Positions 14,098 through 61,507 of a DNA stretch of 64,000 nucleotides are shown here, piece by piece; position 1 is the first letter of the stretch; every line of letters starts with the position of its first letter. A program made the position numbers and the translations under genes. Source of the DNA: an uncultured Pelagibacteraceae bacterium (lineage in GTDB: Bacteria; Pseudomonadota; Alphaproteobacteria; Pelagibacterales; Pelagibacteraceae). The DNA lies in the NCBI GenBank assembly GCA_902573755.1, contig CACGLD010000001.1:1-64000 (forward strand), read 5' to 3'. The notes under the pieces were generated by a model. That model did not search any database. It saw only the letters and a list, made by a program, of their open reading frames with translations, and had not been told where the DNA came from.

Positions 14098-16703
<2,606 letters not shown>

Positions 16704-34842: not shown

Positions 34843-35754
34843 ATGCAAAAAATTACAGGCATAGACATTCAAAAACATGATAAATCAAATAGGATTATAA
34901 AAATTAGTTTAGATAATGATATTATAGATAAATTAATTTTCCCATTTAATAAATTTGATTTAACAGCGTTGGAGTTAAAACCATTTACAAGATTTACTTT
35001 AGCAAAAAGTTTAGATGATTTAACAGATAATAAATTAAGTAAATTAATGAACTCAATTATTAGAGATAGATCTACAGGTTGCTTTATTATTGGACCAAAA
35101 AATATAACTGCAAAAATTAATGATACATTTTTAGTTAAGTTATCAACTGCAATAGCTCATTTAATTGGTGTACCAAATCATGATGCAATGGCAGGAAAAT
35201 ACTATGCTCGTTTTCATGTAAAACATGAAGATACTAGCGACTCTTACTTAAGAAAAGCTTATAGAAATATGGATCTTCATACAGATGGGACATATGTTAA
35301 AGATGTAACAGATTGGTTAATCATGACAAAAATTGATGAGCAAAATGTTGAAGGTGGAGAAACAGCTATGCTACACCTTGATGACTGGGAGCATTGTGAT
35401 GATTTATATAATGATCCAGTAGGGAGACAAAATTTTGTTTGGGGGTCACCAAAAAGTAAAAATATTGATTACAAGGTAGAGCACCCAGTCTTTTCGCCTG
35501 ATAAAGAGGGAAGACCAACAATATCCTACATAGATCAATTTCCAGAGCCACAAAATATGGACCAAGGAAATTTTTTACAAAGATTATCTGATGGATTAGA
35601 GGAAAGTAAAAATAAAATAATTACAAAGTTACCCGTTGGATTCTCTGTGATTGCAAATAATTATTTCTGGCTTCATGGAAGAAAACCCTTCAAAGAAAAC
35701 AAGGAATTAAGCAGAGAATTACTAAGAATTAGAGGTTCTTTTTTTGTTAATTAA
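34843..35754 (+). CDS. glaH: Glutarate 2-hydroxylase, GlaH/CsiD family
   Basis: Fe(II)/2-oxoglutarate oxygenase that hydroxylates glutarate to L-2-hydroxyglutarate in the lysine/cadaverine breakdown route known from E. coli and Pseudomonas. The 303-residue protein has the metal triad His146 and Asp148 (MDLHTDGTY) and His278 (FWLHGRKPF), and C-terminal arginines (RELLRIRG) for 2-oxoglutarate. Several stretches resemble CsiD closely: TAIAHLIGVPNHDAMAGKYY, KIDEQN, LHLDDWEH and RPTISYIDQF. No lhgO or gabDT gene follows, unlike in E. coli. The family call is strong; the substrate is inferred. Confidence 0.88.
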   Translation: MQKITGIDIQKHDKSNRIIKISLDNDIIDKLIFPFNKFDLTALELKPFTRFTLAKSLDDLTDNKLSKLMNSIIRDRSTGCFIIGPKNITAKINDTFLVKLSTAIAHLIGVPNHDAMAGKYYARFHVKHEDTSDSYLRKAYRNMDLHTDGTYVKDVTDWLIMTKIDEQNVEGGETAMLHLDDWEHCDDLYNDPVGRQNFVWGSPKSKNIDYKVEHPVFSPDKEGRPTISYIDQFPEPQNMDQGNFLQRLSDGLEESKNKIITKLPVGFSVIANNYFWLHGRKPFKENKELSRELLRIRGSFFVN

Positions 35755-35786: not shown

Positions 35787-36554
35787 ATGAATTTAGGTTT
35801 TATTGGTACGGGAAAAATTGCAGCTTCAGTGATTACTGGAATATGTAAATCAAAAATTTCTTATAAGAAAATAATTATTTCACCAAGAAATAAAAAAATA
35901 GCTCATGGGCTAAAAAGAAAGTATAAAAAAATAGTTATTGCTAAGGACAATCAGCAAATTGTAGATCAGTCTAATTGGGTATTTTTATCTGTTACACCTA
36001 CTGTCGGTGAAAAAATTATTAAAGATTTAAAATTTAAATCGACTCAAACCGTTGTTAGTTTTATTTCGACAATTACGTTATCTCAATTAAAGAAAGCAAT
36101 TAAAGTAAGAGCAAAAATTGTGAGAGCAATACCTCTGCCTCCGATTTCGTTAAAGAAAGGTCCTGTACCTATTTGTCCCCCTAATTCAAAAGTGAAAGCG
36201 TTTTTCAATAACTTGGGCACAACTGTAGAAATTAAGAATGAAAAATCGTCTATAAATTTTTGGTCAACCTCTGGCATGATGGCGCCTTTTTATGAGATGT
36301 TGAGAGTAATGACTGATTGGTTGGTAAAAAGAGGGGTAAAAAGAAATAATGCTCAAAAATATATTACTTCTTTATTTTTAGCTTTATCTGAAGATGCTGT
36401 AGTAAATTCAAAAGAAAATTTAAAGAATTTAGTAAAAGAGTCTCAAACGCCAAAAGGTTTAAATGAACAAGGTGTTAAAGAATTAACTAAAGCTGGATTT
36501 TATAAATCTCTAGAAAAAACTTTAAACAGTATTCACAAAAGACTAAATAAATAA
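35787..36554 (+). CDS. Pyrroline-5-carboxylate reductase-like protein
   Basis: A 255-residue protein with an N-terminal Rossmann motif GFIGTGKIAASVITGI and a ProC-type C-terminal helical part containing SQTPKGLNEQGVKEL (equivalent to the ProC SPGGTT region). It diverges from housekeeping ProC and is rich in Lys, so it may reduce a different cyclic imine. It precedes a second Liv-type operon by five bases and is probably cotranscribed with it. Confidence 0.72.
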   Translation: MNLGFIGTGKIAASVITGICKSKISYKKIIISPRNKKIAHGLKRKYKKIVIAKDNQQIVDQSNWVFLSVTPTVGEKIIKDLKFKSTQTVVSFISTITLSQLKKAIKVRAKIVRAIPLPPISLKKGPVPICPPNSKVKAFFNNLGTTVEIKNEKSSINFWSTSGMMAPFYEMLRVMTDWLVKRGVKRNNAQKYITSLFLALSEDAVVNSKENLKNLVKESQTPKGLNEQGVKELTKAGFYKSLEKTLNSIHKRLNK

Positions 36555-41711: not shown

Positions 41712-42902
41712 TTATCTTTGTTTTTTAGTTTTGAATTTTCCGCCTTTAATTTCTTGTTCTAAGAAAGAACCTTCAGCTTCACCAACTTCAGTAAAAGTTA
41801 CTCCAGTAGCACCTTCGTAATTAATCTTTTTACCTTTTGCTAGTAAATCTAAACCTTTCTTAAGTTCACCTGGATAAATTTTAGTTCCAGGAGCATTAGC
41901 AACATCCATTACATTTTTTGCAATTGATGCTCTGTCAGCAGAGTTACCTGCTTGCATTGCAAGAACTATTAAAGCGGCTGCATCGTAAGATTCACCTGTG
42001 TAAGGACCAGAAGCTTCTACACCTCCAGCTTTTGCAACTTCAGCAAATATACCCGCACCTTTACCAGTAGAACCTGGTAATGATCCAAATGATTTACTTA
42101 AATCTTTTCCGAATGCATCAACTAAAGATTGACCAATCATACCATCTGATAAAATAAATCTATCAAACGCACCAGAGTCTAAAGAAGCTTGAATAATTCC
42201 TTTTCCTCCTTGGTCAAGATAACCAATAACTGCTACAGCATCACCACCAGCAGAAGCAAGAGTTGCTACTTCAGATGAGTAATCTGCTTTTCCATCTTCG
42301 TGAGCAGTTACAGTTGTAACTGTAATACCATGAGCTTCAACTGCTGCTTTGTAAACATCAGCTAAACCTTTACCATAGTCATTGTTAGTATAAGTGATTG
42401 CAACACTTTTTACTTTTCTGTCTTTAGTTATATCAGCTAAAATTTGACCACCTCTAGCATCTGATGGAGCAGTTCTAAAGAAATACCCTTTGTCATCTAG
42501 AGTTGTTAATCCTGGAGAAGTAGCTGAAGGTGAAATCATTACTACACCATTTGGTACAGCAACGTTAGTTGCAATAGCACCAGTTACACCTGAACAGTCT
42601 GCTCCCATAATTGCAGCTACACCACCTGAAATTAACCCTTCAGCTGCAGCTGTTGCTGCTGCTGAGTCAACACAAGTTGAGTCTGCTCTTACTGGCTCAA
42701 TTTTTTTTCCGCCTAATAGTGAACCTGAATCAGAAGCTTCTTTAAATGCGAGCTCTGCAGATGCAGCCATAGCTGGAGTTAGAGATTCAATAGGACCAGT
42801 GAATCCTAAGATGATCCCCATTTTAATCGAATGTCCGTCTGCCATTACATTTGAACCAAAACTTGATACAAACATAAATACAGCGATAAATAGTTTTCTC
42901 AT
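41712..42902 (-). CDS. Branched-chain amino acid-type ABC importer binding protein 2 (LivK-like)
   Basis: A 396-residue Peripla_BP_6 protein with a signal peptide of about 21 residues ending NVMA. The opening GIILGFTGPIESLTPAMAAS and ADSTCVDSAAATAAAEGLI are LivK-like. I start at the ATG at 42902, which has a ribosome-binding site AGAGGAAG four to five bases upstream; a TTG eight codons earlier has none. Its position convergent to the second Liv operon, which lacks its own binding protein, suggests they work together. Codon choice looks optimised, as expected for an abundant protein. Confidence 0.92.
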   Translation of the reverse strand: MRKLFIAVFMFVSSFGSNVMADGHSIKMGIILGFTGPIESLTPAMAASAELAFKEASDSGSLLGGKKIEPVRADSTCVDSAAATAAAEGLISGGVAAIMGADCSGVTGAIATNVAVPNGVVMISPSATSPGLTTLDDKGYFFRTAPSDARGGQILADITKDRKVKSVAITYTNNDYGKGLADVYKAAVEAHGITVTTVTAHEDGKADYSSEVATLASAGGDAVAVIGYLDQGGKGIIQASLDSGAFDRFILSDGMIGQSLVDAFGKDLSKSFGSLPGSTGKGAGIFAEVAKAGGVEASGPYTGESYDAAALIVLAMQAGNSADRASIAKNVMDVANAPGTKIYPGELKKGLDLLAKGKKINYEGATGVTFTEVGEAEGSFLEQEIKGGKFKTKKQR

Positions 42903-43009: not shown

Positions 43010-44491
43010 TTATCTTATTGAGAAGGGGTCTAGGGAGGGTTCGTCTGATGTGTAGAACCAAGTTGTTTTTACTCTTGTGTAGTCTTTAATTGAGTCAATT
43101 CCTGCTTCTTTTCCATATCCACTATCCTTGATACCCCCAAATGGAGCTGAAGGTGAAATTAATCTATAAGTATTTACAAATGTTATTCCTGCTCGGATAG
43201 CATTAGATACCCTCATGCCTCTTGCAAGATCACTAGTATAAACACCTGAAGAAAGACCATATTGATTGTCGTTCATTAATTCTATTACCTCTTTTTCAGT
43301 ATCAAATTTCATCACTGATAATACAGGACCGAAAAGTTCATTCTCAGCAGCCGGTAAATTATGATTTTCACACTCAATAATTGTTGGAGGAAAATAATAA
43401 CCTTCATTTGAAAAAGGATGTCTTTTACCACCACATTTAATTTTTCCACCTTGTTCAACAGTTAATTTAATATTTTTTTCTATTACTTCTAATTGTTTGA
43501 AGTTACTTAGTGGACCCATTTCAGTATCAGAGTCCATAGGAGCACCTATTTTAATTTTTTCTGCTCTTGATGCTAACTTATCTAAAAATTCGTTATAAAT
43601 TCCTTTTTGTAAGTATAACCTTGAACCTGCTATACAACTTTGACCACTTGCTCCAAATATTCCAGCAGTTATTCCATTAATTGCATTTTCTTGTTTGGCA
43701 TCATCAAAAACAGCTACAGGACTTTTTCCACCTAATTCTAAACTTACTTCAGATAAATTTTCTGCAGAGTTTCTAATTATATGCCTTGCAGTTTCAGGAC
43801 CTCCTGTAAAAGCTACTTTCTCAACTAAATTGTGAGTAGTTAAAGCTTTACCACATGGATCTCCAAACCCAGAAACTACATTTACAACACCTTTTGGTAT
43901 TCCAGTTTCTTCAACTAACTTTGCAAATTCAAACATAGTTGCTGGTGCTAGTTCAGAACATTTAATTACTACTGTATTACCCATAGCTAAAGCAGGAGCG
44001 ACTTTTGTTGCAGTTAAAAACATTTGAGAATTCCAAGGAATGATAGCTGCAATAACACCTATTGGAATTCTTGTTGTGATCGCTTGAATATTTGGTTTAT
44101 CTATTGGAAGAACTGTTCCTTCAACTTTGTCAGCTAAACCTGCATAGTAATCATAATATTCTGCAATATATTTTGCTTGTTGATAGGTTTCTCTGTACAG
44201 TTTTCCTGTATCAATTGTTTCAATCTTTCCTAATAATTCAGAATTTTCTCTAAGTTTATTTCCGATTGCTCTTAAATATTTTGCTCTATCTCTTGCAATC
44301 ATCTTTGGCCATTCACCTTCAAAAGCTTTTTGTGCAGCTTTTACAGCTCTATCTACATCATTTGCGCTAGCTTCAGGAACTGTAGCCCAAGGCTTATTAT
44401 TTTCTGGATTTAAAGTTTCAAAAGTTTTTTTTGTATCAGAGTCTACCCACTGACCATCTATAAACATTTGATATTTTTTTAATTCAGGCAT
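43010..44491 (-). CDS. NAD(P)-dependent aldehyde dehydrogenase
   Basis: A 493-residue aldehyde dehydrogenase with the catalytic Cys in GQSCIAGSR, the general-base Glu in LELGGKSP, and the cofactor-binding IPWNSQMFLTATKVAPALA region. Relatives oxidise betaine aldehyde, gamma-aminobutyraldehyde and other small aldehydes. It is the last gene of a four-gene minus-strand operon and overlaps the hydrolase gene by eight bases. It likely oxidises an aldehyde product of the operon (inference). Confidence 0.93.
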   Translation of the reverse strand: MPELKKYQMFIDGQWVDSDTKKTFETLNPENNKPWATVPEASANDVDRAVKAAQKAFEGEWPKMIARDRAKYLRAIGNKLRENSELLGKIETIDTGKLYRETYQQAKYIAEYYDYYAGLADKVEGTVLPIDKPNIQAITTRIPIGVIAAIIPWNSQMFLTATKVAPALAMGNTVVIKCSELAPATMFEFAKLVEETGIPKGVVNVVSGFGDPCGKALTTHNLVEKVAFTGGPETARHIIRNSAENLSEVSLELGGKSPVAVFDDAKQENAINGITAGIFGASGQSCIAGSRLYLQKGIYNEFLDKLASRAEKIKIGAPMDSDTEMGPLSNFKQLEVIEKNIKLTVEQGGKIKCGGKRHPFSNEGYYFPPTIIECENHNLPAAENELFGPVLSVMKFDTEKEVIELMNDNQYGLSSGVYTSDLARGMRVSNAIRAGITFVNTYRLISPSAPFGGIKDSGYGKEAGIDSIKDYTRVKTTWFYTSDEPSLDPFSIR

Positions 44492-45269
44492 TATTTATAT
44501 GTTTCATTATTGCATTATTTACTTCGTCTGCATATTCAATAGTGCATAGATGTTTTCCATTTTTGATTTCAACATAGGTTGAATTTTCTATATCTTTATT
44601 TAAATTTTTAGACATATCAGGTGTAGATCCTGGGTCATCCGATCCTGTTATTATTAAAGTATTTGTTTTTATATTTTTTATATTTTCAAGATTGTCCTGA
44701 TAGTTTGCAAACACCTCATAAGATTTAATAAAATTTTCTTGATCAATTCCTTTCTTGTTAAGAATTTTCATAAACTCATCATATAACTCAGGATTTTGTT
44801 CAAGGTATTTATCTGAAAACCATCTCTTCATTGCCATTTGAGATATTGGCATATTTTTTTTTGCCAAATTCACTCTATCAATTACATTTTGTCTTTCCTC
44901 TGCTGTCCTTTGATATGTAGTGGATATTAGAGTTAAAGAATTTAAATAATTTTCATATTTTGAAGCAAATTCAATTGCAATCAAAGATCCGATAGAAAAA
45001 CCAATTAAATTAAATTTCTCTATCTTTAGGTTTTTTACTAAATTTGATAATTGATCAATAAAATTTTCCATTGATAAATTTGCCTTTTTAAAAGGTGTTT
45101 TTCCATGTCCCAAAAGATCATAAGTTATAAAGGAATTTTTCTTAAAAAATTCAATTTGTGGTTTCCACATTTGTTGATTTAAACCAACACCATGAATAAA
45201 GATTATTGGTAAAGAATTTTTGTTGTTAAAATAATAATGATTTTGATCGTTATCAAAATTGTAAGACAT
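44484..45269 (-). CDS. Alpha/beta-fold hydrolase
   Basis: A 261-residue hydrolase with the oxyanion region FIHGVGLNQQMW, the nucleophile elbow GFSIGS (Ser92), an acid candidate in TGSDDPGSTPD and a likely catalytic His in NGKHLCTIEY. The start is the ATG at 45269; one TTG codon before it is also in frame but directly follows the upstream stop. Resembles 3-oxoadipate enol-lactonase and RutD-like enzymes. In context it may hydrolyse the product of the flavin oxygenase in the same operon. Confidence 0.9.
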   Translation of the reverse strand: MSYNFDNDQNHYYFNNKNSLPIIFIHGVGLNQQMWKPQIEFFKKNSFITYDLLGHGKTPFKKANLSMENFIDQLSNLVKNLKIEKFNLIGFSIGSLIAIEFASKYENYLNSLTLISTTYQRTAEERQNVIDRVNLAKKNMPISQMAMKRWFSDKYLEQNPELYDEFMKILNKKGIDQENFIKSYEVFANYQDNLENIKNIKTNTLIITGSDDPGSTPDMSKNLNKDIENSTYVEIKNGKHLCTIEYADEVNNAIMKHINNA

Positions 45270-45272
45270 CAA

Positions 45273-45857
45273 TTAGTTATCGATGCCCATCTCTTTCATA
45301 TCTTGATATCTATCACCCGTTCTTGCATGAGCTCGTCCAGTTGGAGCGCCTCCAATTGCAACAACTATTTCATCTTCATTAGGTGCATCATGAATTGTAA
45401 ATTCATGCGTTAGATAAAAAGGTCTTAATCCAGCATCAGTTTTATGCATCATTGGAATTGAAATTTTTGCACCCGCAGGACCTCTAGTATTTGTAAAACT
45501 TAAATAGGAAGTTCCACCAACGGCATCTCTAAATTTATTTCCAAATCTTAAAGTATGAATAAATGCAGATGCATGTTCTATCTCACCATTTAATCCAACC
45601 ATAGCAGCTTTTCCATAAGCTAAAATTTTTTCACCTGATCCAATTTCTTTTGTTAACTCTGGCACTAAAAGATCTCCTAATTGAGGTGCAAGATCTAGTA
45701 TTTCTGGTTTTAAATCTTCTATAAAACCTTTTCCAGCCCAAGGGTTTTCTATAACAGCCGCAACCGAGACTAATAGAACAGGTTCTTTTGCTTTTTTTCC
45801 ACCTTCAATAAAAGTTTTATCTACAAATTTTGCAAATTTTCTAAGTTTTAAATCCAT
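45273..45857 (-). CDS. DUF1185 protein (so-called amino acid synthesis family)
   Basis: A 194-residue protein which I recognise as DUF1185: PVLLVSVAAVIENPWAGKGF, GKAAMVGLNGEIEHASA and IGGAPTGRAHARTGDRYQDM are typical. Its biochemical role is not established as far as I know. It lies three bases after the LLM oxidoreductase gene and three bases before the hydrolase gene, so it is probably an enzyme or accessory factor of the same pathway. Confidence 0.85.
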   Translation of the reverse strand: MDLKLRKFAKFVDKTFIEGGKKAKEPVLLVSVAAVIENPWAGKGFIEDLKPEILDLAPQLGDLLVPELTKEIGSGEKILAYGKAAMVGLNGEIEHASAFIHTLRFGNKFRDAVGGTSYLSFTNTRGPAGAKISIPMMHKTDAGLRPFYLTHEFTIHDAPNEDEIVVAIGGAPTGRAHARTGDRYQDMKEMGIDN

Positions 45858-45860
45858 CTA

Positions 45861-47027
45861 CTAGCTAGCTCTTTGTATGTTTGTATCTATTGGTTTTATA
45901 TTTGGAATAACTTCTTCTGTAAATAACTTGATACTTCTCATACAGTCTTCATGTTTGATACCTGGAAAGTTAGACCAGACTTGTAAATTTTGAAGATTTA
46001 ATTCTTGTTGAAGTTCTTTTATTTTTTCTATTACAAACTCAGGCGTTCCAAATAAAAGATTTCTTTTATGAAGAAATTCATAATTTAATAAATCTAGTTT
46101 ATTTTTTGTCTCTGGTAATTTTTCATCTGGATCCATATGATTTCCCAATCCTCTCCAATGGCAAACCCATCTCATATAATTAACTATATGTTCTCCAGCC
46201 ATTTTTTCAGCCTCCTCCATAGTTTCTGCAACAAACATATCTCTAACCAAACTTATACCTTCACCCAGTGGTACATCTCTATTTTCAGCTTTAGATTTTG
46301 CCTCTTTATAAATTTCAAATCTTTTTTTCAAAGCTTTTACAGTTGGGATCCACATAATTGTATTAAGTCCATTTTCTGCTGCCCACTGAATTGATCTTTC
46401 TCCATCAACAACTTGAGAAATTGGTGGAAAGGGTTTTTGATAAGGTTTTGGTAAAACAGATATTTGTTTTAATTCATTTGTTTTTAAATCTACTACATTT
46501 TCTCTAGGAGGACTCATATCGTGCTGCCAAATAAAATTTGGTGAGGGATAAGTATAGAATTCACCTTGGTGAGAAAAGAAGTCCTCAGACCAAGCTTTTT
46601 TCATTATGTCCAATGTTTCAGAAAATAGTCTAAAATTTTTTGCTTGATCTTTTAAGTCAGCTTCTTTGTTCATGTTAATGGCTTCTCTTCCGTAAACTCC
46701 TCTTCCAATACCAACTTCCACTCTTCCTTTTGACATTTGGTCAAGGGTAGCAATATCTTCTGCAAGTCTTATAGGATTATGAAATGTTATTACGTTGCAA
46801 GCTTGTCCTAAACGAATATTTTTAGTTCTTGCAGCAGCATCAGTACACATCATTAGTGGATTGGTGCAAGACTCCATTCCCTCATGATTAAAATGATGTT
46901 CGGTATACCAAATAGAATTCCAATTATTTTGATCACAATATTCAGTGATTTCTCTAGCTTCGTCTAGAAGTTGGGTATAAGGTTTTTTATCCCAATTAGT
47001 AGTATTGCAAAAATATCCAAAGTTCAT
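45861..47027 (-). CDS. LLM-class (luciferase-like) flavin-dependent oxidoreductase
   Basis: A 388-residue bacterial luciferase-fold enzyme. It has WYTEHHFNHEGMESCTNPL and GRVEVGIGRGVYGREAIN, which are typical of FMNH2-dependent monooxygenases. I start at the ATG at 47027 because it has a perfect ribosome-binding site (AAGGAGG) five bases upstream; an in-frame upstream codon at 47069 would add 14 residues without homology signs. First gene of a four-gene operon. A flavin reductase partner is not visible in the window. Confidence 0.92.
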   Translation of the reverse strand: MNFGYFCNTTNWDKKPYTQLLDEAREITEYCDQNNWNSIWYTEHHFNHEGMESCTNPLMMCTDAAARTKNIRLGQACNVITFHNPIRLAEDIATLDQMSKGRVEVGIGRGVYGREAINMNKEADLKDQAKNFRLFSETLDIMKKAWSEDFFSHQGEFYTYPSPNFIWQHDMSPPRENVVDLKTNELKQISVLPKPYQKPFPPISQVVDGERSIQWAAENGLNTIMWIPTVKALKKRFEIYKEAKSKAENRDVPLGEGISLVRDMFVAETMEEAEKMAGEHIVNYMRWVCHWRGLGNHMDPDEKLPETKNKLDLLNYEFLHKRNLLFGTPEFVIEKIKELQQELNLQNLQVWSNFPGIKHEDCMRSIKLFTEEVIPNIKPIDTNIQRAS

Positions 47028-47132
47028 AAAGCCTCCTTTAAAAATTAATTTAAAGACGACCGATCCCACTTTCGTAAATTTTTGAATTTAACGACGAGTT
47101 ATGTATCGCTTTATAGTTAAACTTTATTATTA

Positions 47133-48101
47133 CTAGCGTTGATATTCAATAAATTTCTTTAAGGATTTGTTAAGAAATTTCTCATAAATTGGACCATTAT
47201 TTTTGAATTTGCTTCCATTTAAAAATGATTGGTTCATTTTGAAATCATAGGAAGGTTCAAAGAAAAAAGGAACAGAGAGTCTCTTACTTTTATTCCATAA
47301 AACTCTGTGATTAGTTGCTTTAAATTTTCCTTTGCTTAGAAACTCCAAAGCTCTACCAGTGTTTACTACTAAAGCTTTTTTGTTAAATGGTACATCATAC
47401 CATTTTTTATTTTTTCTATTTTGTACCTGTAATCCACCTTTTCTATCTTGATAGAGAATTGTGAATATACCACTATCAACATGTGTTTCACATCCAAGAG
47501 CAACCCCATCTTGTTTAGATATTTCTACCGGTTTTACCTGATTAGGGTAATAATTAAATCTTAATGTGCTTAATGTTTTTAATCTTGAAAAAGCTACACT
47601 AGAAATATCAGGATTTTTTTTATTAAGTTTTATTACACTTTTAAATAAAGTTTCACTCAATCTATAAATATTATCGAAATATTTGTTTAAAATATTTATT
47701 GAACTTTTTTTAAAACACTCATCTAGATTAAGAAATTCTATGTATTGATTATTTAGATTTAAAGAATATTTTTTAGTTACTTTTAAATCACCTATATCTA
47801 AACCTTCTTTTCCGTTCACATCATTAGGAAAATATCCTCTGTAAAGATTTTTATTTTTTTTATTCCATTTTTTAGGTGATAATTTTCTTTTCTTACTGTC
47901 TGGTAAATTAAAAAATTTATTCCCAACTTCGCATGTTTTTTTAATTTGTTTTAGATTAATTCCATGACCGGTAATTTGAAAAAAACCTACATTGATACAA
48001 GCTTTTTCAATTTCTTTAATTGTTTTAAACGCATTTTGAGTTTCAAAATTATTTTTAATTAGTGAAGATATATTGATTGTAGGTATATAGCTTTTACTCA
48101 T
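47133..48101 (-). CDS. 2-oxoglutarate/Fe(II) oxygenase, isopenicillin N synthase-like
   Basis: A 322-residue oxygenase with N-terminal DIOX_N-like region (GFFQITGHGINLKQI) and the metal triad His207, Asp209 (CETHVDSG) and His265 (TNHRVLW), plus Arg274-x-Ser276 for 2-oxoglutarate. It is Lys- and Asn-rich. It is encoded with a DMT transporter (ATGA overlap). The substrate cannot be predicted. Confidence 0.87.
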   Translation of the reverse strand: MSKSYIPTINISSLIKNNFETQNAFKTIKEIEKACINVGFFQITGHGINLKQIKKTCEVGNKFFNLPDSKKRKLSPKKWNKKNKNLYRGYFPNDVNGKEGLDIGDLKVTKKYSLNLNNQYIEFLNLDECFKKSSINILNKYFDNIYRLSETLFKSVIKLNKKNPDISSVAFSRLKTLSTLRFNYYPNQVKPVEISKQDGVALGCETHVDSGIFTILYQDRKGGLQVQNRKNKKWYDVPFNKKALVVNTGRALEFLSKGKFKATNHRVLWNKSKRLSVPFFFEPSYDFKMNQSFLNGSKFKNNGPIYEKFLNKSLKKFIEYQR

Positions 48102-49091: not shown

Positions 49092-49553
49092 TTATTTCTT
49101 CAATTTTGAAGTGAATAGAAGACCTTCAGTTAAAAATTTTGATTTGTTTTGTTCAATAAAGTCTTTCATTATTTTTACTTTTTCTTCCTCAAATTTTGTG
49201 ACTTTCCTTTTGCTTAAATCTATATACAGCGATATCCATTCCATAGATGCAGAAAGTTTGTTAGTTTTTTGAGAAATCATCTCCATTTTTAAATGCAATC
49301 TTTTTTTATCATGATCAAAATAAGTGAGATTAACATTAACCATTTCACCCTCTTTAACTTCATTTAAATATTTAGTATTTGTTTCAACAACCATAGTACT
49401 TCTATTAAGATCTTTTGCTGCAGTTCCTCCCATTTTAAATTTTTCAAGCGCAACTTCCCATGCTTGATCAAAAACAAGCACATAATAAGCCATGTTCATG
49501 TGATTATTGTAATCAACCCATTCTTTTTTGACTTCGAAAGTTTTTAATAACAC
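49092..49553 (-). CDS. Hot-dog fold acyl-CoA thioesterase
   Basis: A 153-residue thioesterase-like protein with KKEWVDYNNHMNMAYYVLVF, the typical Asp-x-x-x-His-x-N opening of 4-hydroxybenzoyl-CoA type thioesterases. It resembles the betainyl-CoA thioesterase (CdhB) and the thioesterase half of L-carnitine dehydrogenase fusions. It begins one base after the ProV gene, so it may act on a quaternary-amine acyl-CoA (inference). A generic housekeeping thioesterase is the alternative. Confidence 0.75.
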   Translation of the reverse strand: MLLKTFEVKKEWVDYNNHMNMAYYVLVFDQAWEVALEKFKMGGTAAKDLNRSTMVVETNTKYLNEVKEGEMVNVNLTYFDHDKKRLHLKMEMISQKTNKLSASMEWISLYIDLSKRKVTKFEEEKVKIMKDFIEQNKSKFLTEGLLFTSKLKK

Positions 49554-49554
49554 T

Positions 49555-50580
49555 TTATGATCTTGTTAATGAAGACTGTAATTCTTGATTTGAAATGTAT
49601 CCCTTTACATTTCCACTTTTATCAACCACTTCACAATTTGAATCAGAACATACAATTTTTGGCAAAAAATCTTCTATAAATTCATCTTCATTTACTTTTA
49701 TTAAGTTTGATTTATCTATGTCATTAGCTTGATCAGCAGTTTTCATAATAATTTTTGCCTTGATAACTTTTGCTCTGTTCACATCTTTTACAAAAGCTTT
49801 TACATAATCATCAGCAGGGTTCATAATAATTTCCTCGGGAGTTCCTACTTGAACTAATTTTCCAGAGTTTAGTATCCCGATATGATCACCTAATCTTAAT
49901 GATTCATCTAGATCGTGAGTAATAAATACAATTGTTTTTTTTAGTTCTGCTTGAAGATCAATTAATTGTTTCTGCATATCACTTCTAATCAGAGGATCTA
50001 GAGCGCTGAAAGCTTCATCCATTAACATAATATCTGTATCAGTAGCTAACGCTCTTGCTAGACCAACACGTTGCTGCATTCCTCCTGATAATTGAGCAGG
50101 GTATTGATTTTCAAAACCAGTTAGACCAACTGCATCAATTTTTTCCATTGAGATTTTATTTCTTTCATCTTCACCTTTCCCTTGCATTTCTAATCCGTAA
50201 CCAACATTTTGAATTACTGTTTTATGCGGGAACAAACCAAATCTTTGAAATACCATGCTCATTTTATGTCTTCTAAATTCAATGAGCTTATCTTTATCAA
50301 GTGACATTACATTCGTGCCCTCAACTAAAATTTCGCCATCAGTTGGATCGATTAGTCTATTTAGATGTCTTATTAGCGTTGATTTACCTGATCCTGATAA
50401 ACCCATACAAACAAAGGTTTCTCCTTCTTCAATTTTTAGCGAAACATTATCTAATCCAACGGTATGACCTGTTTGCTCTAAAATTTCATCTTTTGTTGCA
50501 CCATCTTTTACCATTGGCAGTACAGAAGAAGGGTTATTACCAAAAATTTTGTAAACGTTGTTGATCTCAATTTTTGACAT
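49555..50580 (-). CDS. Glycine betaine/proline-type ABC importer ATPase (ProV-like), orphan
   Basis: A 341-residue ATPase with the ProV-type N-terminal region that includes SVLPMVKDGATKDEILEQTG, Walker A GLSGSGKST, FQRFGLFPHKTV, signature LSGGMQQRVGLARAL and Walker B LMDEAFSALDPLIR. A divergent CBS-like domain follows at about 280-341. No ProW or ProX gene lies in the window, so it must pair with subunits elsewhere. It is divergent from the aldolase-dioxygenase pair. Confidence 0.88.
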   Translation of the reverse strand: MSKIEINNVYKIFGNNPSSVLPMVKDGATKDEILEQTGHTVGLDNVSLKIEEGETFVCMGLSGSGKSTLIRHLNRLIDPTDGEILVEGTNVMSLDKDKLIEFRRHKMSMVFQRFGLFPHKTVIQNVGYGLEMQGKGEDERNKISMEKIDAVGLTGFENQYPAQLSGGMQQRVGLARALATDTDIMLMDEAFSALDPLIRSDMQKQLIDLQAELKKTIVFITHDLDESLRLGDHIGILNSGKLVQVGTPEEIIMNPADDYVKAFVKDVNRAKVIKAKIIMKTADQANDIDKSNLIKVNEDEFIEDFLPKIVCSDSNCEVVDKSGNVKGYISNQELQSSLTRS

Positions 50581-50592
50581 GATGTAATGTTC

Positions 50593-50665
50593 TAACAGTT
50601 ACAATCATCATATGTAAAACAAATATTATACAACTTATAATTGTTTTAATAAATAACAGTTGTAT
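50593..50665. promoter_or_regulatory. Divergent control region with repeated and inverted motifs
   Basis: The 125-base spacer between the ProV gene (minus) and the aldolase gene (plus) contains a direct repeat TAACAGTT at 50593-50600 and 50654-50661 and an inverted repeat ATACAACT (50628-50635) / AGTTGTAT (50658-50665). Such an arrangement fits binding of one regulator controlling both directions. No regulator gene is next to it. Confidence 0.4.
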
Positions 50666-50705
50666 TTATTTGCTTTTACTTATTTTTTAAATAAGAATTT
50701 TATAT

Positions 50706-51437
50706 ATGGCGCAAACAGATAAAGATGTGCGATTAGAGTTGTCTGCTCTATATAGAATTTTACATATGTACGGCATGACCGATCTTGCTAACCAATGTGC
50801 AGGGGCAAGATCTGCTGAAGATAAGAATTGTTCTTTCGTTCATCCATATGGAATGTTTTATGAAGAAATTACTGCTTCATCTTTAGTTAAAATTGATCAA
50901 AACGGAAAAAAATTAGATTCAGACGGACCTTGGTTAAACGATGGATGTATTAATCTTGCTCAATGGATTTTTAACAAAAGAAATGATGTAAACTTTTATG
51001 TTCACGGACATGCCAACGATGTGATGGCAGTTGGTGGCACTAAAGAGGGTTTAATGTATCTCTCACAGGCTGCAGTATATTTAAATCATCTTGTTGGATA
51101 TATTGATTATGAATTTGTTGAGGACAAAGAATTTGGAAGCAAATTTGAAAACCTAATTAGCAAACACGACATTTTGATTACTAGAAATCATGGATATTAC
51201 ACAGTAGGAAAAACTGCAGCAGAAGCATTTTTCAGAGCTTATTATCTAGAGCAAGCATGTTCAGTTCAGGTGAAAAATCTTGCTATGGGTTTAAATAAAC
51301 ATGAAATAGATAAACAAAAAGCTGCATATTTCTGGGAAAACATGAGTGACTCTGATGATTATAATTATGATGGAAAAACAGAGTGGGCTGCTTTATTAAG
51401 AAAATTAGAGAGAGAACATTCAAATTATAAAAATTAA
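50706..51437 (+). CDS. Class II aldolase/adducin-family protein
   Basis: A 243-residue metal-dependent aldolase-fold protein. Metal-binding histidines can be seen in YVHGHANDVMAVG and TRNHGYYTVGKT, and the early NQCAGARSAEDKNCSFVHP is like the substrate loop of this family. Members cleave sugar phosphates or other hydroxy-carbonyl compounds; others decarboxylate. It shares one base with the next gene, a gamma-butyrobetaine hydroxylase-like dioxygenase, so the two probably act in sequence. Confidence 0.85.
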   Translation: MAQTDKDVRLELSALYRILHMYGMTDLANQCAGARSAEDKNCSFVHPYGMFYEEITASSLVKIDQNGKKLDSDGPWLNDGCINLAQWIFNKRNDVNFYVHGHANDVMAVGGTKEGLMYLSQAAVYLNHLVGYIDYEFVEDKEFGSKFENLISKHDILITRNHGYYTVGKTAAEAFFRAYYLEQACSVQVKNLAMGLNKHEIDKQKAAYFWENMSDSDDYNYDGKTEWAALLRKLEREHSNYKN

Positions 51438-52588
51438 TGGAACAAAATTTTACAATTAAAAATATAACTAAAAATTCTACAAATTTAGAAGTTGACTGGA
51501 GCGATGGAAAAAAAAGTAAATTTAATTATTTATGGCTAAGAGACAATTGTCCAACTGCACACGATAAAGACTCACGTCATAGAATGTTTAATATTTTAAA
51601 AGTATCAAACAAAATTAATCCAAAAAAATTTGCAGTAAATAATGAAGGCAAGCTTGAAATTGAATGGAGTGAAGGAGACCACGTAAGTTATTATGATCAA
51701 AATTGGTTAAGAGAAAACTGCTATACAATAAAAAATAATTTAGAATATAAATCACCATATCAACTTTGGGACAATTCTTTACAAAATGACCTGAATTCAA
51801 TTGAGATTGAACATGATGAAATTATGAGTTCAGATGAAGGGCTTGTCAGATGGTTAGAACTTTTACATCATACTGGAATTGCTATAGTAAAAAATGCTCC
51901 AACTAAAAATAATTCTGGCTTTAAAATTTTAAATAGAATTAGCCATACTAGGGAAACTTTTTTTAAAACACCTTTTGAAGTAATTAACATTCCTAAACCA
52001 AATAATTCTGCTTACACAGCACATGCTTTAAGAAATCATATGGATTTACCTTGGTTTGAAACACCACCTGGTTATCAATTTCTTCATTGTTTAGTTAATT
52101 CTGCAACAGGAGGAGACTCGTCCGCTGTAGATGGCTTTGCAGTTGCAGATTATTTAAGAAAAAATGAGAAAGAAATATTTGATACGCTAGTAAACGTTCA
52201 TTTAAAATTTAGAGACATGGATTATACACAAGAGTCTGTTAGAAGTTATTACGCACCCGCGATATCTCTAACAAAAGATAATGATTACCATGATATTCGG
52301 TTTAGCGTAGCAACCATGGATGCTTTAGACTGTCATCCTGATTTGATGGATAAAGTTTACAAAGCTCATCACCGATTTGGAAATTTGCTTCATGATGATC
52401 AATTTCAGATTAAATTTAGATTAGGACCAGGTGATATTTTTTCTTTTAACAATAGACGATTGTTACATGGTAGAACTGAATATGATCCAAACTCAGGACA
52501 TAGACATTTACAAGGTTATTACATGGATCGAGATGAAATTATTGGAAGACTAAGATATTTAAAAAATTCGGTTAACTCCAACCAGTAA
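51437..52588 (+). CDS. Gamma-butyrobetaine/trimethyllysine dioxygenase-like 2-oxoglutarate oxygenase
   Basis: A 383-residue protein with the N-terminal DUF971-like domain (KFNYLWLRDNCPTAH) and a TauD-type oxygenase domain. The iron ligands are His201 and Asp203 in RNHMDLPWFETPPGYQFLHC and His344 in RLLHGRTEY; a C-terminal Arg (GHRHLQGYY) binds 2-oxoglutarate. This layout defines the gamma-butyrobetaine hydroxylase/trimethyllysine hydroxylase family. The Cys-x-Cys-x-x-Cys zinc site of vertebrate enzymes is reduced to CPTAH. It ends 17 bases inside the convergent aldehyde dehydrogenase gene. Confidence 0.85.
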   Translation: MEQNFTIKNITKNSTNLEVDWSDGKKSKFNYLWLRDNCPTAHDKDSRHRMFNILKVSNKINPKKFAVNNEGKLEIEWSEGDHVSYYDQNWLRENCYTIKNNLEYKSPYQLWDNSLQNDLNSIEIEHDEIMSSDEGLVRWLELLHHTGIAIVKNAPTKNNSGFKILNRISHTRETFFKTPFEVINIPKPNNSAYTAHALRNHMDLPWFETPPGYQFLHCLVNSATGGDSSAVDGFAVADYLRKNEKEIFDTLVNVHLKFRDMDYTQESVRSYYAPAISLTKDNDYHDIRFSVATMDALDCHPDLMDKVYKAHHRFGNLLHDDQFQIKFRLGPGDIFSFNNRRLLHGRTEYDPNSGHRHLQGYYMDRDEIIGRLRYLKNSVNSNQ

Positions 52589-54002
52589 CATTCTTTACTT
52601 CAAGATATTCCTCAAGGCCCCAAACACCTCCTTCTCTCCCATTACCTGATTGTCTGTAACCACCAAATGGAGTTCCGGCATCTGCTCCATTTCCATTAAT
52701 GTAAACACATCCAGATCTTAATTTTTTAGCAACCCTGTGTGCTTTTTCTTTGTCTTCAGTTTGCAAATAATTTCCAAGACCGTAAGAAGTATCATTTACA
52801 ATTTTGACTGCCTCATCCTCAGTTTCAAATGGAATTATAGATAACACAGGTCCAAAAATTTCTTCTTTAGCAATTCTCATTTCATTAGTTACATCTGTAA
52901 AGATAGTTGGTTTTATAAAGTATCCTTTGTTCAAACCGTTTGGTAGCTCAGGCCCACCTACTGCAAGAGTTGCACCTTCAGAAATTCCACTTTCAATAAG
53001 ATTTATAATTTTATCATATTGAACTTTAGAGATGACTGGTCCTATATGATCTCCTTTTTTTGAAGCTTGATCTACTTTAATTTTGTTTGCTTCATCTATT
53101 GCTTCTTTAACAGCTCTTTCATAAATTGATTTCTCAACCAGCATTCTTGTTGGTGCATCACAAGATTGACCAGAATTGCTCATTACATTTCGAATACCAT
53201 CTCTTACTGCATCTTTATAACTGTCAGCAAAAACAATGTTTCCACCTTTACCACCTAATTCAAGACAAACTCTTTTAATTGTTTCTGCAGCGTTTTTTGA
53301 AATTAATCTTCCTGCTCTTGTTGAACCTGTGAAAGAAATCATATCAATATCAGGGTGGCTTGAAATGTGAGTTCCCACTCCTGCACCGTCTCCATTTACC
53401 AAATTAAATACACCTTTTGGAAAACCTGCTTCATCAATCATTTCTGAAAATAGCATTCCAGAAATAGGAGCAATTTCTGATGGTTTTAAAATCATTGTAC
53501 ATCCAGTTGCGAATGCTGGAACAACCTTCAAAGCAATTTGGTTAATTGGCCAATTCCACGGTGTGATTAATCCACAAACTCCAATTGGCTCATAATAGAT
53601 ATGATTATTTGATTTATTATCAAAGTGTTCATCAAATTTAAAATTTTTTAATCTTAAAATAAAATCATCTAAATGATCTTTTCCTGAAGCTGTTTGAACA
53701 TCTGTTGCCCAATCCATTGGTGCACCCATTTCAAGAGAAATAGCCTCAGCCATTTCATTAAATCTTTTTTTATAAACTGATGATAATTTTTCAAGTAAAC
53801 TGAGCCTTTCTTCCTTGCTAGTTTCTTTCCAAGTATCAAAGGCATTTTTTGCTGATTTAACAGCTAAATCTGTATCCTCTTTTGAACCTAAAGAAATAAC
53901 AGCAAACGGGTCTTCATTGCATGGATTAATGACTTCAAAATCATTTTTTTTAATTGGATCAACCCACTGACCATTTATGTAAAATTTTTTTTTATCTAAC
54001 AT
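52572..54002 (-). CDS. NAD(P)-dependent aldehyde dehydrogenase
   Basis: A 476-residue enzyme with the catalytic Cys in GQSCDAPTR, the Glu in LELGGKGGN and the cofactor region ITPWNWPINQIALKVVPAFA. It is distinct from the enzyme at 43010. It is encoded convergently with the dioxygenase gene, with which it overlaps by 17 bases, and 20 bases after the NAD-dependent dehydrogenase gene on the same strand. A role in oxidising a trimethylammonium aldehyde is possible but unproven. Confidence 0.92.
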   Translation of the reverse strand: MLDKKKFYINGQWVDPIKKNDFEVINPCNEDPFAVISLGSKEDTDLAVKSAKNAFDTWKETSKEERLSLLEKLSSVYKKRFNEMAEAISLEMGAPMDWATDVQTASGKDHLDDFILRLKNFKFDEHFDNKSNNHIYYEPIGVCGLITPWNWPINQIALKVVPAFATGCTMILKPSEIAPISGMLFSEMIDEAGFPKGVFNLVNGDGAGVGTHISSHPDIDMISFTGSTRAGRLISKNAAETIKRVCLELGGKGGNIVFADSYKDAVRDGIRNVMSNSGQSCDAPTRMLVEKSIYERAVKEAIDEANKIKVDQASKKGDHIGPVISKVQYDKIINLIESGISEGATLAVGGPELPNGLNKGYFIKPTIFTDVTNEMRIAKEEIFGPVLSIIPFETEDEAVKIVNDTSYGLGNYLQTEDKEKAHRVAKKLRSGCVYINGNGADAGTPFGGYRQSGNGREGGVWGLEEYLEVKNVTGWS

Positions 54003-54022
54003 TTTTTATCTTAACACATAAA

Positions 54023-54964
54023 TTAAATTTCATATCCTTTTTCCTCAGGTTCATTGTCAACCAGCTCATCAGGAAAACCATTAGCTCTAAAATTAATATT
54101 ATTTAAATCTTCCATCCTTTTCACAATCATTGATGACCAAGCTCTGGAACCATATTTTTTTTGACCATCTTTAAAAATTTCAACTATTTTTGGAGAAATT
54201 TCTAAAGGAGCATTCATTTTTTTCGCAAGATTGTCAAATAGACTTGTGTCTTTTAAAACCAAATCCATTGTAAAATTTATATTATAAGATCCATTTAATA
54301 TAACCTGACTTTCAGTTTCATGCACAAATGAATTACCAGAAGAAATAGCAATTCCTTTATAAGTTTTTGCTAAATCTAAATTAGATTTTTTTGCTACAGT
54401 CCAAGCCTCACCTAATGCAACTAAATGTGCAGATGCTAGATAATTTGTAATTACTTTTAATACACTTGCTGTACCAAGCTCACCTGTGTGCAATATTTTT
54501 CTCCCCATAACAGTTAATGCAGGTAAAATTTTTTCAAATGCTTTTCTTTCCCCACCCACGAATATCGCAATATTACCTGTTGCTGCTCTATGACATCCAC
54601 CACTCACAGGTCCATCCAAAGGGATAGCTTTTTTTTCTATTACTTTTTTCCCAAGTCTTTTAACTTCATTTTCATCTGTGGTACTCATTTCTAGCCAAAT
54701 TTTGTTTTCTGATAAACCATTTAGAATTCCATCTTCACTTTCCATAACTTCTGCAGAAACCTCAGGAGAAGGAAGAGAAGTAATGATTAAATCGGATTGT
54801 TCAGTTAATTCTTTTGGAGACTTTGCAACTTTAGCACCTAAGTCTTTCAAAGAATTTGTTAAAGTTTCATCTAAATCTCTTACTGTAAGATCAAAGTTAT
54901 TTCTTAATAAACTTCCTGCAAGTTTTCCTCCAACATTACCTAAACCTATAAATCCAATTTTCAT
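54023..54964 (-). CDS. 3-hydroxyisobutyrate dehydrogenase-family NAD(P)-dependent oxidoreductase
   Basis: A 313-residue beta-hydroxyacid dehydrogenase: Rossmann motif GFIGLGNVGGKLAGSLL, substrate motif DGPVSGGCHRAATGN and catalytic Lys in KVITNYLASAHLVALGEA. The family covers 3-hydroxyisobutyrate, tartronate semialdehyde and succinic semialdehyde reductases; substrate undetermined. It overlaps the upstream DMT gene by four bases (ATGA). Confidence 0.9.
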   Translation of the reverse strand: MKIGFIGLGNVGGKLAGSLLRNNFDLTVRDLDETLTNSLKDLGAKVAKSPKELTEQSDLIITSLPSPEVSAEVMESEDGILNGLSENKIWLEMSTTDENEVKRLGKKVIEKKAIPLDGPVSGGCHRAATGNIAIFVGGERKAFEKILPALTVMGRKILHTGELGTASVLKVITNYLASAHLVALGEAWTVAKKSNLDLAKTYKGIAISSGNSFVHETESQVILNGSYNINFTMDLVLKDTSLFDNLAKKMNAPLEISPKIVEIFKDGQKKYGSRAWSSMIVKRMEDLNNINFRANGFPDELVDNEPEEKGYEI

Positions 54965-55833
54965 TTTATTTCCTCTTCTTTTTTATTTTTTGTAAATACA
55001 ATTAAAATCACACCAACTATGATTATTGCACCACCTATAAATAATTCTGGAGTTGGTTTTTCTCCCAAAAGAAAAATAGCAGCTAATAAACCTGTTGGTG
55101 GTATCCCCATAGTTACAATCGGTAGTACTTTATAAAGTGGGTTGTTTTTCAAAACATAATAGAAACAACCATAAGTAATTGGTTGCATGATGAAGCCTAT
55201 ATAAATTGCAATAATCCAATGATCAAATTTTGCATTTGTTAAATAATTAATTGTGTTTCCATCAATTATTGCAGATAGTATCACTAATATCGGTCCAGAG
55301 AATAAGGCTAACCAAGCAACTAACGCTAAAGGATTTATTTCTTTACTTAATGGTTTAACCATAACTTGTCCAAGAGCCCATACAGCTGAACCTAAAATCG
55401 TAAGTCCAATTCCAATAAATTTTCCATCTAATTTAGGAGATCCGATCAAAATATAAACACCAACAAAAGCAATAGCTATACCGATCAAAGCTCTAATAGT
55501 TGGTTTTTCTTTAAGCATGAAGTAAGCAAAAATAACTCCAAATGGAACTTCTGTTTGAACCAAAAGAACTGCTGCAGATGCATCAATTAAATCTAAACCA
55601 GAATATGTAATGCTATATTGTAAAGTATTAGCCACTAATGATGCAGCAAAAATTCTTTTTAAATATCCTTTTGGTATTGGAAACCACCAAATTAATAATG
55701 ATGCAGCAAAAGTAAATCTGATACCCATCAAAAGAATAGGAGGAAAAGATTCAAATGCTGGTTTAGCTATTACAAAACCAAAGCCTAAAAAAATAGGCAC
55801 CAAGGACGCTACGAAAGTATCTTTTATATTCAT
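54961..55833 (-). CDS. DMT/EamA-family transporter
   Basis: A 290-residue membrane protein with ten predicted helices and two EamA repeats (PIFLGFGFVIAKPAFESFPP at the start, GSAVWALGQVMVKPL in the second repeat). It is third of the drug/metabolite transporters in the window. It begins the minus-strand dehydrogenase operon and is divergent from the eutA-like gene. Confidence 0.86.
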   Translation of the reverse strand: MNIKDTFVASLVPIFLGFGFVIAKPAFESFPPILLMGIRFTFAASLLIWWFPIPKGYLKRIFAASLVANTLQYSITYSGLDLIDASAAVLLVQTEVPFGVIFAYFMLKEKPTIRALIGIAIAFVGVYILIGSPKLDGKFIGIGLTILGSAVWALGQVMVKPLSKEINPLALVAWLALFSGPILVILSAIIDGNTINYLTNAKFDHWIIAIYIGFIMQPITYGCFYYVLKNNPLYKVLPIVTMGIPPTGLLAAIFLLGEKPTPELFIGGAIIIVGVILIVFTKNKKEEEIK

Positions 55834-55891
55834 ACCTATTTTTTATATTAATGATTATTAAAGAACTTCTGATATATTCACCTTTTAAAAT

Positions 55892-56638
55892 ATGAATTCA
55901 ACAAAAATAGATCCCAAATATATTACTAAATCAAATCCAAGAATTGGACTTATTGCGCTTGCAAGTGATTTTATGATTGAAAGAGATTTTATAAACGTAA
56001 TTAAAGACAGAGAAGTTGATTTCTTTGTAAATCGTATTGAATGCTATAATCCGCTAACAAAAGAAAATTTGATCAAAATGTCAAACAAAGTGACCGAGGT
56101 CACTAAAGATATATTACCTGATCAGGATATCGATTGTGTTGTTTATGGCTGTACATCTGGAACAATAGCTGCAGGTTATGAATCTATTGAAAAGAAAGTA
56201 AAAGCTGCAAAACCTATGGCAGAAGTAACAACTCCAAGTACCGCTGCAATCAAAGCTTTAAAGAAATTAAATATAAATAAAATAAGTCTATTTACACCTT
56301 ATAGCAAAAAACTTAACGATGAAGTTATGGAATATTTTAAAAGCGAAGGATTTGAAGTTACGTCAAATTCTTATTTTGATATAGAAGCTGATTACGATAT
56401 CGGAAAAGTTGATCAGAGTTATTTGTATAATGTTCTATCTGAAATAGATTTAAATGGGGCAGAGGCACTCTTTGTTTCTTGTACTGCTTTACCAGTATTG
56501 CCAATTATTGATAAATTAGAGAAAAAATTAAATACTACAGTTTTATCTAGCAATCAGGCTTTAATTTGGGATACGCTTGTTAAAATAAATAAAAATAACT
56601 CTGTTGAGGGATTTGGTAAATTATTTAAAGAAAATTAA
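55892..56638 (+). CDS. Asp/Glu racemase-fold protein, EutA/maleate isomerase-like
   Basis: A 248-residue member of the maleate isomerase/arylmalonate decarboxylase family with both catalytic cysteines, Cys87 (VYGCTSGTIAAG) and Cys197 (FVSCTALPVLPI). The following gene encodes a DoeA/EutD-type hydrolase, which makes EutA of hydroxyectoine breakdown (proposed to act on the stereochemistry of an intermediate) the best candidate. The two genes share one base (TAATG). Maleate isomerase cannot be excluded. Confidence 0.8.
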   Translation: MNSTKIDPKYITKSNPRIGLIALASDFMIERDFINVIKDREVDFFVNRIECYNPLTKENLIKMSNKVTEVTKDILPDQDIDCVVYGCTSGTIAAGYESIEKKVKAAKPMAEVTTPSTAAIKALKKLNINKISLFTPYSKKLNDEVMEYFKSEGFEVTSNSYFDIEADYDIGKVDQSYLYNVLSEIDLNGAEALFVSCTALPVLPIIDKLEKKLNTTVLSSNQALIWDTLVKINKNNSVEGFGKLFKEN

Positions 56639-57807
56639 TGTTGTTCACAAAAGAAGAATACAAACAAAGATTAGCAAAAGTTAAAAAAATGATGCAAGAA
56701 AAAGGCATCGATCTTTTAATCTCGCATGACACTAACAACATGAATTACCTAACAGGTTATGATGCTTGGTCTTTTTATTATGCTCAATGCGCAATTGTTC
56801 ATATAGATGCAGAAGAGCCTCTATGTTTTGTTAGGGCTCAAGATGCAGGTGGCGCATATATTAAAACTTATTTAAAGGATGAGAATATTTTAGTTTATGA
56901 CGAAAATTACATTCATACATGGCCAAAACATCCTTATGATAATTTGGTAGAGATTATAAAAGAAAGAAAATGGGATAAGTTATGCATTGGCTTAGAAATG
57001 GACGCACATTACTTCACTGCGTTTTGTTATGAAAAAATAAAGCAAGGATTGCCTAATGCAAAAATTAAAGATAGCGATCGTCTAGTTAATTGGGCAAGGT
57101 TAGTAAAATCAGATGCTGAAATAGGTTTCATGAAATCTGCTGCAAAAATTTCTGAAAAAGGAATGAAAACTGCTATGGAAGTTATTAAACCAGGTGTCAG
57201 ACAGTGTGATGCGGTTGGAGAAATTCAAAAAACTTTATTTTATGGAACAGAGGAATTTGGAGGAGAATATTCTAGTATTGCAACATTACTTCCAACAGGG
57301 AAAGGTACTTCAGCTTCACATTTAACAGCAACACAAGATAAATTTGTGGAAGGTGAGGCTACAATTATTGAATTATCTGGGGTTTATAAAAGATATCATG
57401 CTCCAATGGCTAGAACAGTTCTGCTTGGAAAACCCAATCAATTAAAGATTGATACAATGAACAAAACAATTGAAGCTTTAAATGCTGGTATAAGTAAAAT
57501 TAAACCTGGGAATACAGCAGATGATGTTGCACAAGCTTTTTGGAAAATTTTAGATAAATATGGAATAGAAAAAAAATCTCGAACAGGTTATTCAATTGGA
57601 ATTGGTTATCCTCCTGATTGGGGAGAACATACTCTTAATATTTATAAGGGAGATATGACAGTTTTAGAACCTAACGTTTGTTTCCACATGATAGCGGTAA
57701 TGCAGTTTGGTGATTGGGGTGTTGAAGCATCTGAGGCTATAAGAGTTACAGAGAATGGATCAGAATTATTCTGTAATTTTCCAAAAGAGCTTCATATTAA
57801 GAGTTAA
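56638..57807 (+). CDS. doeA: M24-family ectoine hydrolase-like protein (DoeA/EutD)
   Basis: A 389-residue creatinase/prolidase-fold protein. DTNNMNYLTGYDAWSFYYAQ, SRTGYSIGIGYPPDWGEHT and VLEPNVCFHMI match the DoeA/EutD ectoine hydrolase pattern as I know it. Where metallopeptidases have a metal Asp, it reads IIELSGVYKRYHAPMART (Glu245, His254, Arg259), and full M24 metal ligands are not visible, in line with a non-peptidase. It would open the ectoine ring to N-acetyl-diaminobutyrate. The deacetylase gene (doeB/eutE) is not in the window, so the substrate remains inferred. Confidence 0.72.
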   Translation: MLFTKEEYKQRLAKVKKMMQEKGIDLLISHDTNNMNYLTGYDAWSFYYAQCAIVHIDAEEPLCFVRAQDAGGAYIKTYLKDENILVYDENYIHTWPKHPYDNLVEIIKERKWDKLCIGLEMDAHYFTAFCYEKIKQGLPNAKIKDSDRLVNWARLVKSDAEIGFMKSAAKISEKGMKTAMEVIKPGVRQCDAVGEIQKTLFYGTEEFGGEYSSIATLLPTGKGTSASHLTATQDKFVEGEATIIELSGVYKRYHAPMARTVLLGKPNQLKIDTMNKTIEALNAGISKIKPGNTADDVAQAFWKILDKYGIEKKSRTGYSIGIGYPPDWGEHTLNIYKGDMTVLEPNVCFHMIAVMQFGDWGVEASEAIRVTENGSELFCNFPKELHIKS

Positions 57808-57814
57808 TTAGCTA

Positions 57815-57844
57815 TTGAAATCTATTTACACAAATGTTTTATAT
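57815..57844 (+). promoter_or_regulatory. Possible promoter for the polyamine-type importer ATPase
   Basis: TTGAAA (57815-57820) and TTATAT (57839-57844) are 18 bases apart. The expected start lies at about 57851, just two bases before the ATG at 57853, which lacks a Shine-Dalgarno site. Confidence 0.3.
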
Positions 57845-57852
57845 GCACCTTT

Positions 57853-58938: not shown

Positions 58939-58957
58939 TCTTCAATTAAAAATTACA

Positions 58958-59039: not shown

Positions 59040-59055
59040 TTTAAACGGAGGAATA

Positions 59056-60174: not shown

Positions 60175-60209
60175 TTTCAGTTTTAAACACTGAATTTATA
60201 TAATATATT

Positions 60210-61505: not shown

Positions 61506-61507
61506 TT

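Follow-up and report, generated by a model that had tools for sequence, protein, structure and literature searches.

A conserved cassette of LLM oxygenase, DUF1185, hydrolase and aldehyde dehydrogenase genes in SAR11 bacteria as a candidate variant of the Tgn ring-opening module

The closest described system is the trigonelline (Tgn) pathway of Acinetobacter baylyi ADP1, in which an LLM-class flavin oxygenase, a DUF1185 protein (TgnF), an alpha/beta hydrolase (TgnD) and an aldehyde dehydrogenase (ALDH; TgnC) are encoded in one operon. Perchat et al. 2018 are said to have described its steps as an oxygenation, followed by aldehyde oxidation and then by hydrolysis, with a hydroxybutyrolactone among the intermediates. 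An LLM oxygenase and an alpha/beta hydrolase are also combined in the Rut pathway of pyrimidine degradation, which to our knowledge includes neither an ALDH nor a DUF1185 protein. TgnF, the DUF1185 homologue of the trigonelline pathway, stimulates the TgnE-dependent oxidation of succinate semialdehyde (PMC7913881). Another DUF1185 protein, HcdD, is encoded in a ring-degradation operon, hcdDEFG of Pseudomonas mandelii, which acts on 7-hydroxycoumarin, and a dihydrocoumarin lactone is among the intermediates linked to DUF1185 (PMC7913881); unlike the locus described here, this operon contains neither LLM nor ALDH and uses ene-reductase chemistry.

In place of the ADP1 Tgn proteins, the pSymA cluster of Sinorhizobium and an A. 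baumannii record were used for comparison. The pSymA cluster contains genes for a GntR regulator, DUF1185, hydrolase, flavin reductase, LLM, ALDH, an ABC transporter and a succinate semialdehyde dehydrogenase (SSADH), and a Sinorhizobium strain without pSymA does not grow on trigonelline (PMC4207669). All six enzyme genes are present in the Acinetobacter record, whose DUF1185, LLM and ALDH are 71-73% identical to those of pSymA, and the DUF1185-hydrolase-flavin reductase-LLM-ALDH part is found in Leisingera, Pantoea and Thioclava. These clusters are taken here as Tgn clusters.

The locus under study lies in a stretch of 64,000 nucleotides (the window) from a SAR11 (Pelagibacteraceae) genome of 0.94 Mb in 62 contigs, 68.6% complete. 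It comprises the following features:

47032..47038, minus strand: AAGGAGG ribosome-binding site of the LLM gene, 4 bases ahead of its ATG (from the sequence)
45861..47027, minus strand: LLM-class flavin oxidoreductase, 388 aa counted from the ATG (PF00296, Bac_luciferase, 159 bits)
45273..45857, minus strand: DUF1185 / AA_synth protein, TgnF-type, 194 aa (PF06684, 216 bits)
44484..45272, minus strand: alpha/beta hydrolase, PcaD-like and distantly TgnD-type, starting at TTG 45272 or ATG 45269 (PF00561, Abhydrolase_1, 80 bits)
43010..44491, minus strand: aldehyde dehydrogenase, TgnC-type (PF00171, Aldedh, 538 bits)
47133..48101, minus strand: 2OG-Fe(II) oxygenase, directly upstream of the LLM gene, an associated gene of uncertain cassette membership
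41712..42902, minus strand: LivK-type substrate-binding protein, a downstream neighbour that adjoins the ALDH gene in 52 of 80 loci

The first-pass annotation had described a four-gene operon on the minus strand with a perfect AAGGAGG site ahead of its first gene, and both points were borne out: the open reading frames and Pfam families are as proposed, the site reads at 47038-47032, and the spacers are short, with 3 nt between LLM and DUF1185, 0 nt (TTG start) or 3 nt (ATG start) between DUF1185 and hydrolase, and an overlap of 8 nt between hydrolase and ALDH. Most genes are tightly packed in streamlined genomes, so this spacing is weak operon evidence on its own. The Pfam scores of the four proteins are far over the gathering scores, and among the NCBIfam models listed no cut-off was reached by any of them.

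Linkage was followed in the 80 nearest DUF1185 loci, all from SAR11 except for one locus from a single alphaproteobacterial cell, which carries this cassette as well. In this set, picked by DUF1185, the LLM gene accompanies DUF1185 in 78 loci, the hydrolase gene in 77 and the ALDH gene in 72, with gene order kept, and several of the loci that miss a gene are truncated by a contig end; the earlier view of a conserved catabolic operon, which would have fallen had the four genes not stayed together elsewhere, thus gains support. A survey of 201 genomes of the genus, classed by DUF1185 as 97 cassette-positive and 104 negative, located the LLM in 91 of the 97 genomes with DUF1185 and in none of the others (91 vs 0; Fisher p ~1e-50). 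The cassette occurs in varied contexts, beside EamA and 2OG-oxygenase genes, divergent from ectoine/PotABCD genes (L047, L050, L074) or in unrelated genomic regions (L061, L072). Given these contexts and the co-occurrence of LLM and DUF1185, it is a real accessory module of this SAR11 genus.

The window DUF1185 is 54-60% identical to the DUF1185 proteins of Tgn-type clusters, and the window ALDH is 50-55% identical to the ALDH encoded beside the LLM in them (Sinorhizobium pSymA, Leisingera, Thioclava, Pantoea, Acinetobacter and Paraburkholderia), but only 33-34% identical to their SSADH; the ALDH tree agrees with its TgnC-type placement. The hydrolase is more distant (24-30%), although it has the nucleophile Ser, the Asp and the His, together with the RWF and STP-x-M motifs common to most cluster hydrolases. 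The first-pass annotation knew of no described pathway with DUF1185 so placed; this is contradicted by the trigonelline pathway, which includes the homologue TgnF (PMC7913881). The likeness to Rut that it had noted does not give the best analogue: the SAR11 operon lacks the further Rut genes, its hydrolase reaches 77 bits with the RutD model, whose cut-off is 238.5, and the 25 highest-scoring LLM matches listed contain no RutA model, so that membership in Rut was rejected.

One departure from Tgn is the oxygenase. The window LLM is ~25% identical to the LLMs of Tgn clusters and falls apart from them in the tree, in a separate, deeply split and well-supported lineage with proteins of the genomes G211 and G226; it is therefore not of TgnB type, and we propose that it is a ring-opening oxygenase of another lineage. 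An AlphaFold model made with ten SAR11 sequences was unusable (mean pLDDT 41.5). Gene order differs from Tgn as well, and the cassette has no linked flavin reductase, SSADH or GntR regulator. The TgnA-type flavin reductase (PF01613) was found in 2 of the 201 genus genomes and not in the host genome (68.6% complete), and no SSADH (TgnE) was found over the TIGR01780 cut-off in the 201 genomes under a strict E-value limit, where divergent ALDHs could substitute for it. A second FMN_red copy (PF03358), which may be a substitute reductase, is enriched in carriers (34/97 vs 15/104, p 0.0009), an enrichment confounded by kinship and by the size and completeness of the genomes.

The same type of LLM occurs in the alphaproteobacterium G211 (locus L124), where the order is flavin reductase-LLM-DUF1185-hydrolase-ALDH. 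Its four cassette genes follow the SAR11 order, with LLM and DUF1185 55% and 64% identical to those of SAR11, whereas it keeps a flavin reductase, adds a Rieske oxygenase (best family GbcA, glycine betaine monooxygenase, under the cut-off) and has an ALDH that the tree puts closer to TgnC than to its SAR11 counterpart. The LLM-DUF1185-hydrolase neighbourhood, which was to be searched for across Alphaproteobacteria, is thus also present outside SAR11, and because G211 joins the SAR11-type LLM to flavin reductase, DUF1185, hydrolase and ALDH, this LLM, judged by sequence, belongs with the module there too. The cassette is best read, from these comparisons, as a reduced Tgn-like module, a variant of the known pathway with a different ring-opening oxygenase.

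The SAR11 cassette exists in two forms. In the long form a ThDP enzyme, whose best matches are sulfoacetaldehyde acetyltransferase (Xsc-like) models, under their cut-off, sits between LLM and DUF1185 wherever both share one contig; it was found in 47 of the 97 carriers and in none of the 104 non-carriers. The window holds the short form, without this enzyme. We know of no ThDP enzyme in Tgn. That of G226 was considered as a counterpart and rejected, as identity is only ~20-23%.

The surroundings point to a betaine as substrate, because a BCCT transporter, carnitine-type genes, the GbcA-like Rieske oxygenase, and ectoine and butyrobetaine genes lie near such modules: genes of ectoine, butyrobetaine and betaine-transport type surround the window operon, the BCCT transporter comes after the Tgn-type cluster of Thioclava, and genes of carnitine-catabolism type flank the clusters of Aminobacter and Parasedimentitalea. 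We regard it as somewhat probable that SAR11 has here a pared-down and altered Tgn-like module that opens a heterocyclic betaine ring; its substrate, step order, source of reduced flavin and products we infer as follows. The LLM, supplied with reduced flavin by an unlinked reductase, would insert oxygen into a heterocyclic betaine from the N-methylpyridinium group, be it trigonelline, homarine or a compound close to them, and open the ring, giving an N-formyl enamide that bears an aldehyde. The TgnC-type ALDH would convert the aldehyde to a carboxylate, DUF1185 would work with the aldehyde-handling step, and the PcaD-like hydrolase would cut the formamide/enamide, yielding formate, a small dicarboxylate or semialdehyde that would enter central metabolism, and an amine, which would be methylamine where the nitrogen carries a methyl group. 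Oxygenolytic ring opening, hydrolysis and aldehyde oxidation, the enzymatic steps envisaged earlier, are still the likeliest, but their order probably changes, with aldehyde oxidation before hydrolysis by analogy with Tgn. Counting against the Tgn-like reading are the lineage of the LLM, the near-absence of PF01613, the failure to find an SSADH at the family cut-off, the low identity of the hydrolase and the ThDP insert in about half of the carriers.

Glu90, His93 and Arg176, conserved pocket residues of BB2672, correspond to E92, H95 and R179 of the window DUF1185, and an IHTL-x-FGN stretch is common to the cluster-linked members and not present in the two solved structures. In the flanks examined, DUF1185 is kept without SSADH, as in L082, L089, L091, L094 and the window. 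To see it as an assistant of SSADH may thus be too narrow, because it follows LLM, ALDH and hydrolase with no SSADH nearby. Since the dihydrocoumarin lactone and, reportedly, the Tgn hydroxybutyrolactone are linked intermediates, its function may be to open aldehydes or lactones in their cyclic form, an idea that can be put to the test.

That the cassette is specific to the degradation of homarine (N-methylpicolinate) is a doubtful proposition, although a definite route can be drawn: ring opening, aldehyde oxidation and deformylation would give N-methyl-2-iminoglutarate and, from it, 2-oxoglutarate or N-methylglutamate, and would not require the SSADH that the genus lacks at the TIGR01780 cut-off. 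Homarine is abundant in marine particles, where trigonelline is scarce (1-300 pM), and because TgnAB has been argued to be unlikely to act on homarine (PMC8269262), an LLM unlike the Tgn type would fit it, as its differently placed carboxylate might demand. A homarine pathway involving N-methylglutamate dehydrogenase has been reported (cited in PMC13390433), but the cassette holds neither this enzyme nor an imine reductase. Only tentatively do we suggest, in addition, that SAR11 degrades one of the major heterocyclic betaines of the sea, with homarine as the leading candidate, by a pathway of its own in which a second, separately recruited ring-opening LLM works with no dedicated flavin reductase; DUF1185 would then act on the ring-opened aldehyde itself, perhaps opening the hydroxylactone that is its cyclic form, and not merely as an SSADH helper. 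Homologues in Tgn clusters for DUF1185, ALDH and hydrolase would also suit the plain trigonelline pathway, run in SAR11 with another oxygenase and with flavin reduction and semialdehyde oxidation left to general enzymes, but this appears improbable in view of the LLM lineage, of the TgnA and TgnE equivalents that were not found (PF01613 in 2/201, SSADH in 0/201 at the cut-off) and of the scarcity of trigonelline in marine particles (PMC8269262). A literature search on SAR11 and trigonelline returned nothing relevant. The presence of HcdD in an operon without LLM (PMC7913881), the sharing of the module by several cluster types (R. leguminosarum, Aminobacter, Parasedimentitalea) and the extra Xsc-like ThDP enzyme of the SAR11 long form agree with a module that serves some unrelated pathway for N-heterocycles or lactones, resembling those for pyridine, pyrimidine or coumarin, and has DUF1185 as a generic partner. 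We consider this to have a low probability too, as the betaine and osmolyte context recurs.

The cassette is carried by about half of the sampled genus genomes (97/201), and SAR11 bacteria are among the most abundant cells of the surface ocean. It probably enables its carriers to degrade a nitrogen-ring osmolyte of planktonic origin. Should the Tgn-like module act on homarine, trigonelline or a related compound, it would tie a pool of nitrogen-bearing plankton metabolites to the carbon, nitrogen and C1 metabolism of SAR11, and would provide a marker gene pair for the use of these metabolites. It also makes the question of the DUF1185 role testable.

Two neighbours of the cassette differ in their distribution. 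The LivK-type binding protein was considered as a dedicated transporter component and rejected, because 63 of the 104 cassette-negative genomes carry one too; it is probably not specific to the cassette. The 2OG-Fe(II) oxygenase gene is adjacent to the cassette in 46 of the 80 loci and was found in 60 of the 97 cassette-positive genomes vs 11 of the 104 negative ones (p ~8e-15).

A gene for a ThDP enzyme, inserted between the LLM and DUF1185 genes, is found in 47 of the 97 SAR11 genomes that carry the cassette (about half) and in none of the non-carriers; the enzyme is Xsc-like by best match, with a score below the cut-off. A 2OG-Fe(II) oxygenase gene is also cassette-associated across the genus (201 genomes), being present in 60/97 carriers versus 11/104 non-carriers, a strong but not exclusive association.

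Compared locus L052, 6307-8001: ThDP enzyme in the LLM/DUF1185 interval (further examples in loci L069 and L076)
Window 47133-48101: 2OG-Fe(II) oxygenase

The LLM enzymes of the SAR11 genus should require reduced flavin, despite the near-absence from it of flavin reductases of the PF01613 family (2/201 genomes). In a SAR11 genome, locus L067 holds, at 14511-16322, another LLM (344 aa) together with a PcaD-like hydrolase, and this second LLM forms a long branch placed by the tree closer to the Tgn-type (trigonelline pathway) lineage. A single region of genome G226 (L125) contains two SAR11-type LLM genes, alongside genes for a polyamine-type ABC transporter, an ALDH, DUF1185, a hydrolase and an isochorismatase-family protein.

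The window also contains an osmolyte island (49092-62362) and a GlaH gene followed by a pyrroline-5-carboxylate reductase gene.

49092-62362: a thioesterase of carnitine type, a ProV-like ATPase and a protein resembling gamma-butyrobetaine dioxygenase
49092-62362, further genes: EutA-like and DoeA-like ectoine genes, PotABCD-type transporter
34843-35751: glutarate dioxygenase GlaH (454 bits, above the NCBIfam cut-off of 333)
35787-36554, next after GlaH: pyrroline-5-carboxylate reductase (337 versus 254 bits)
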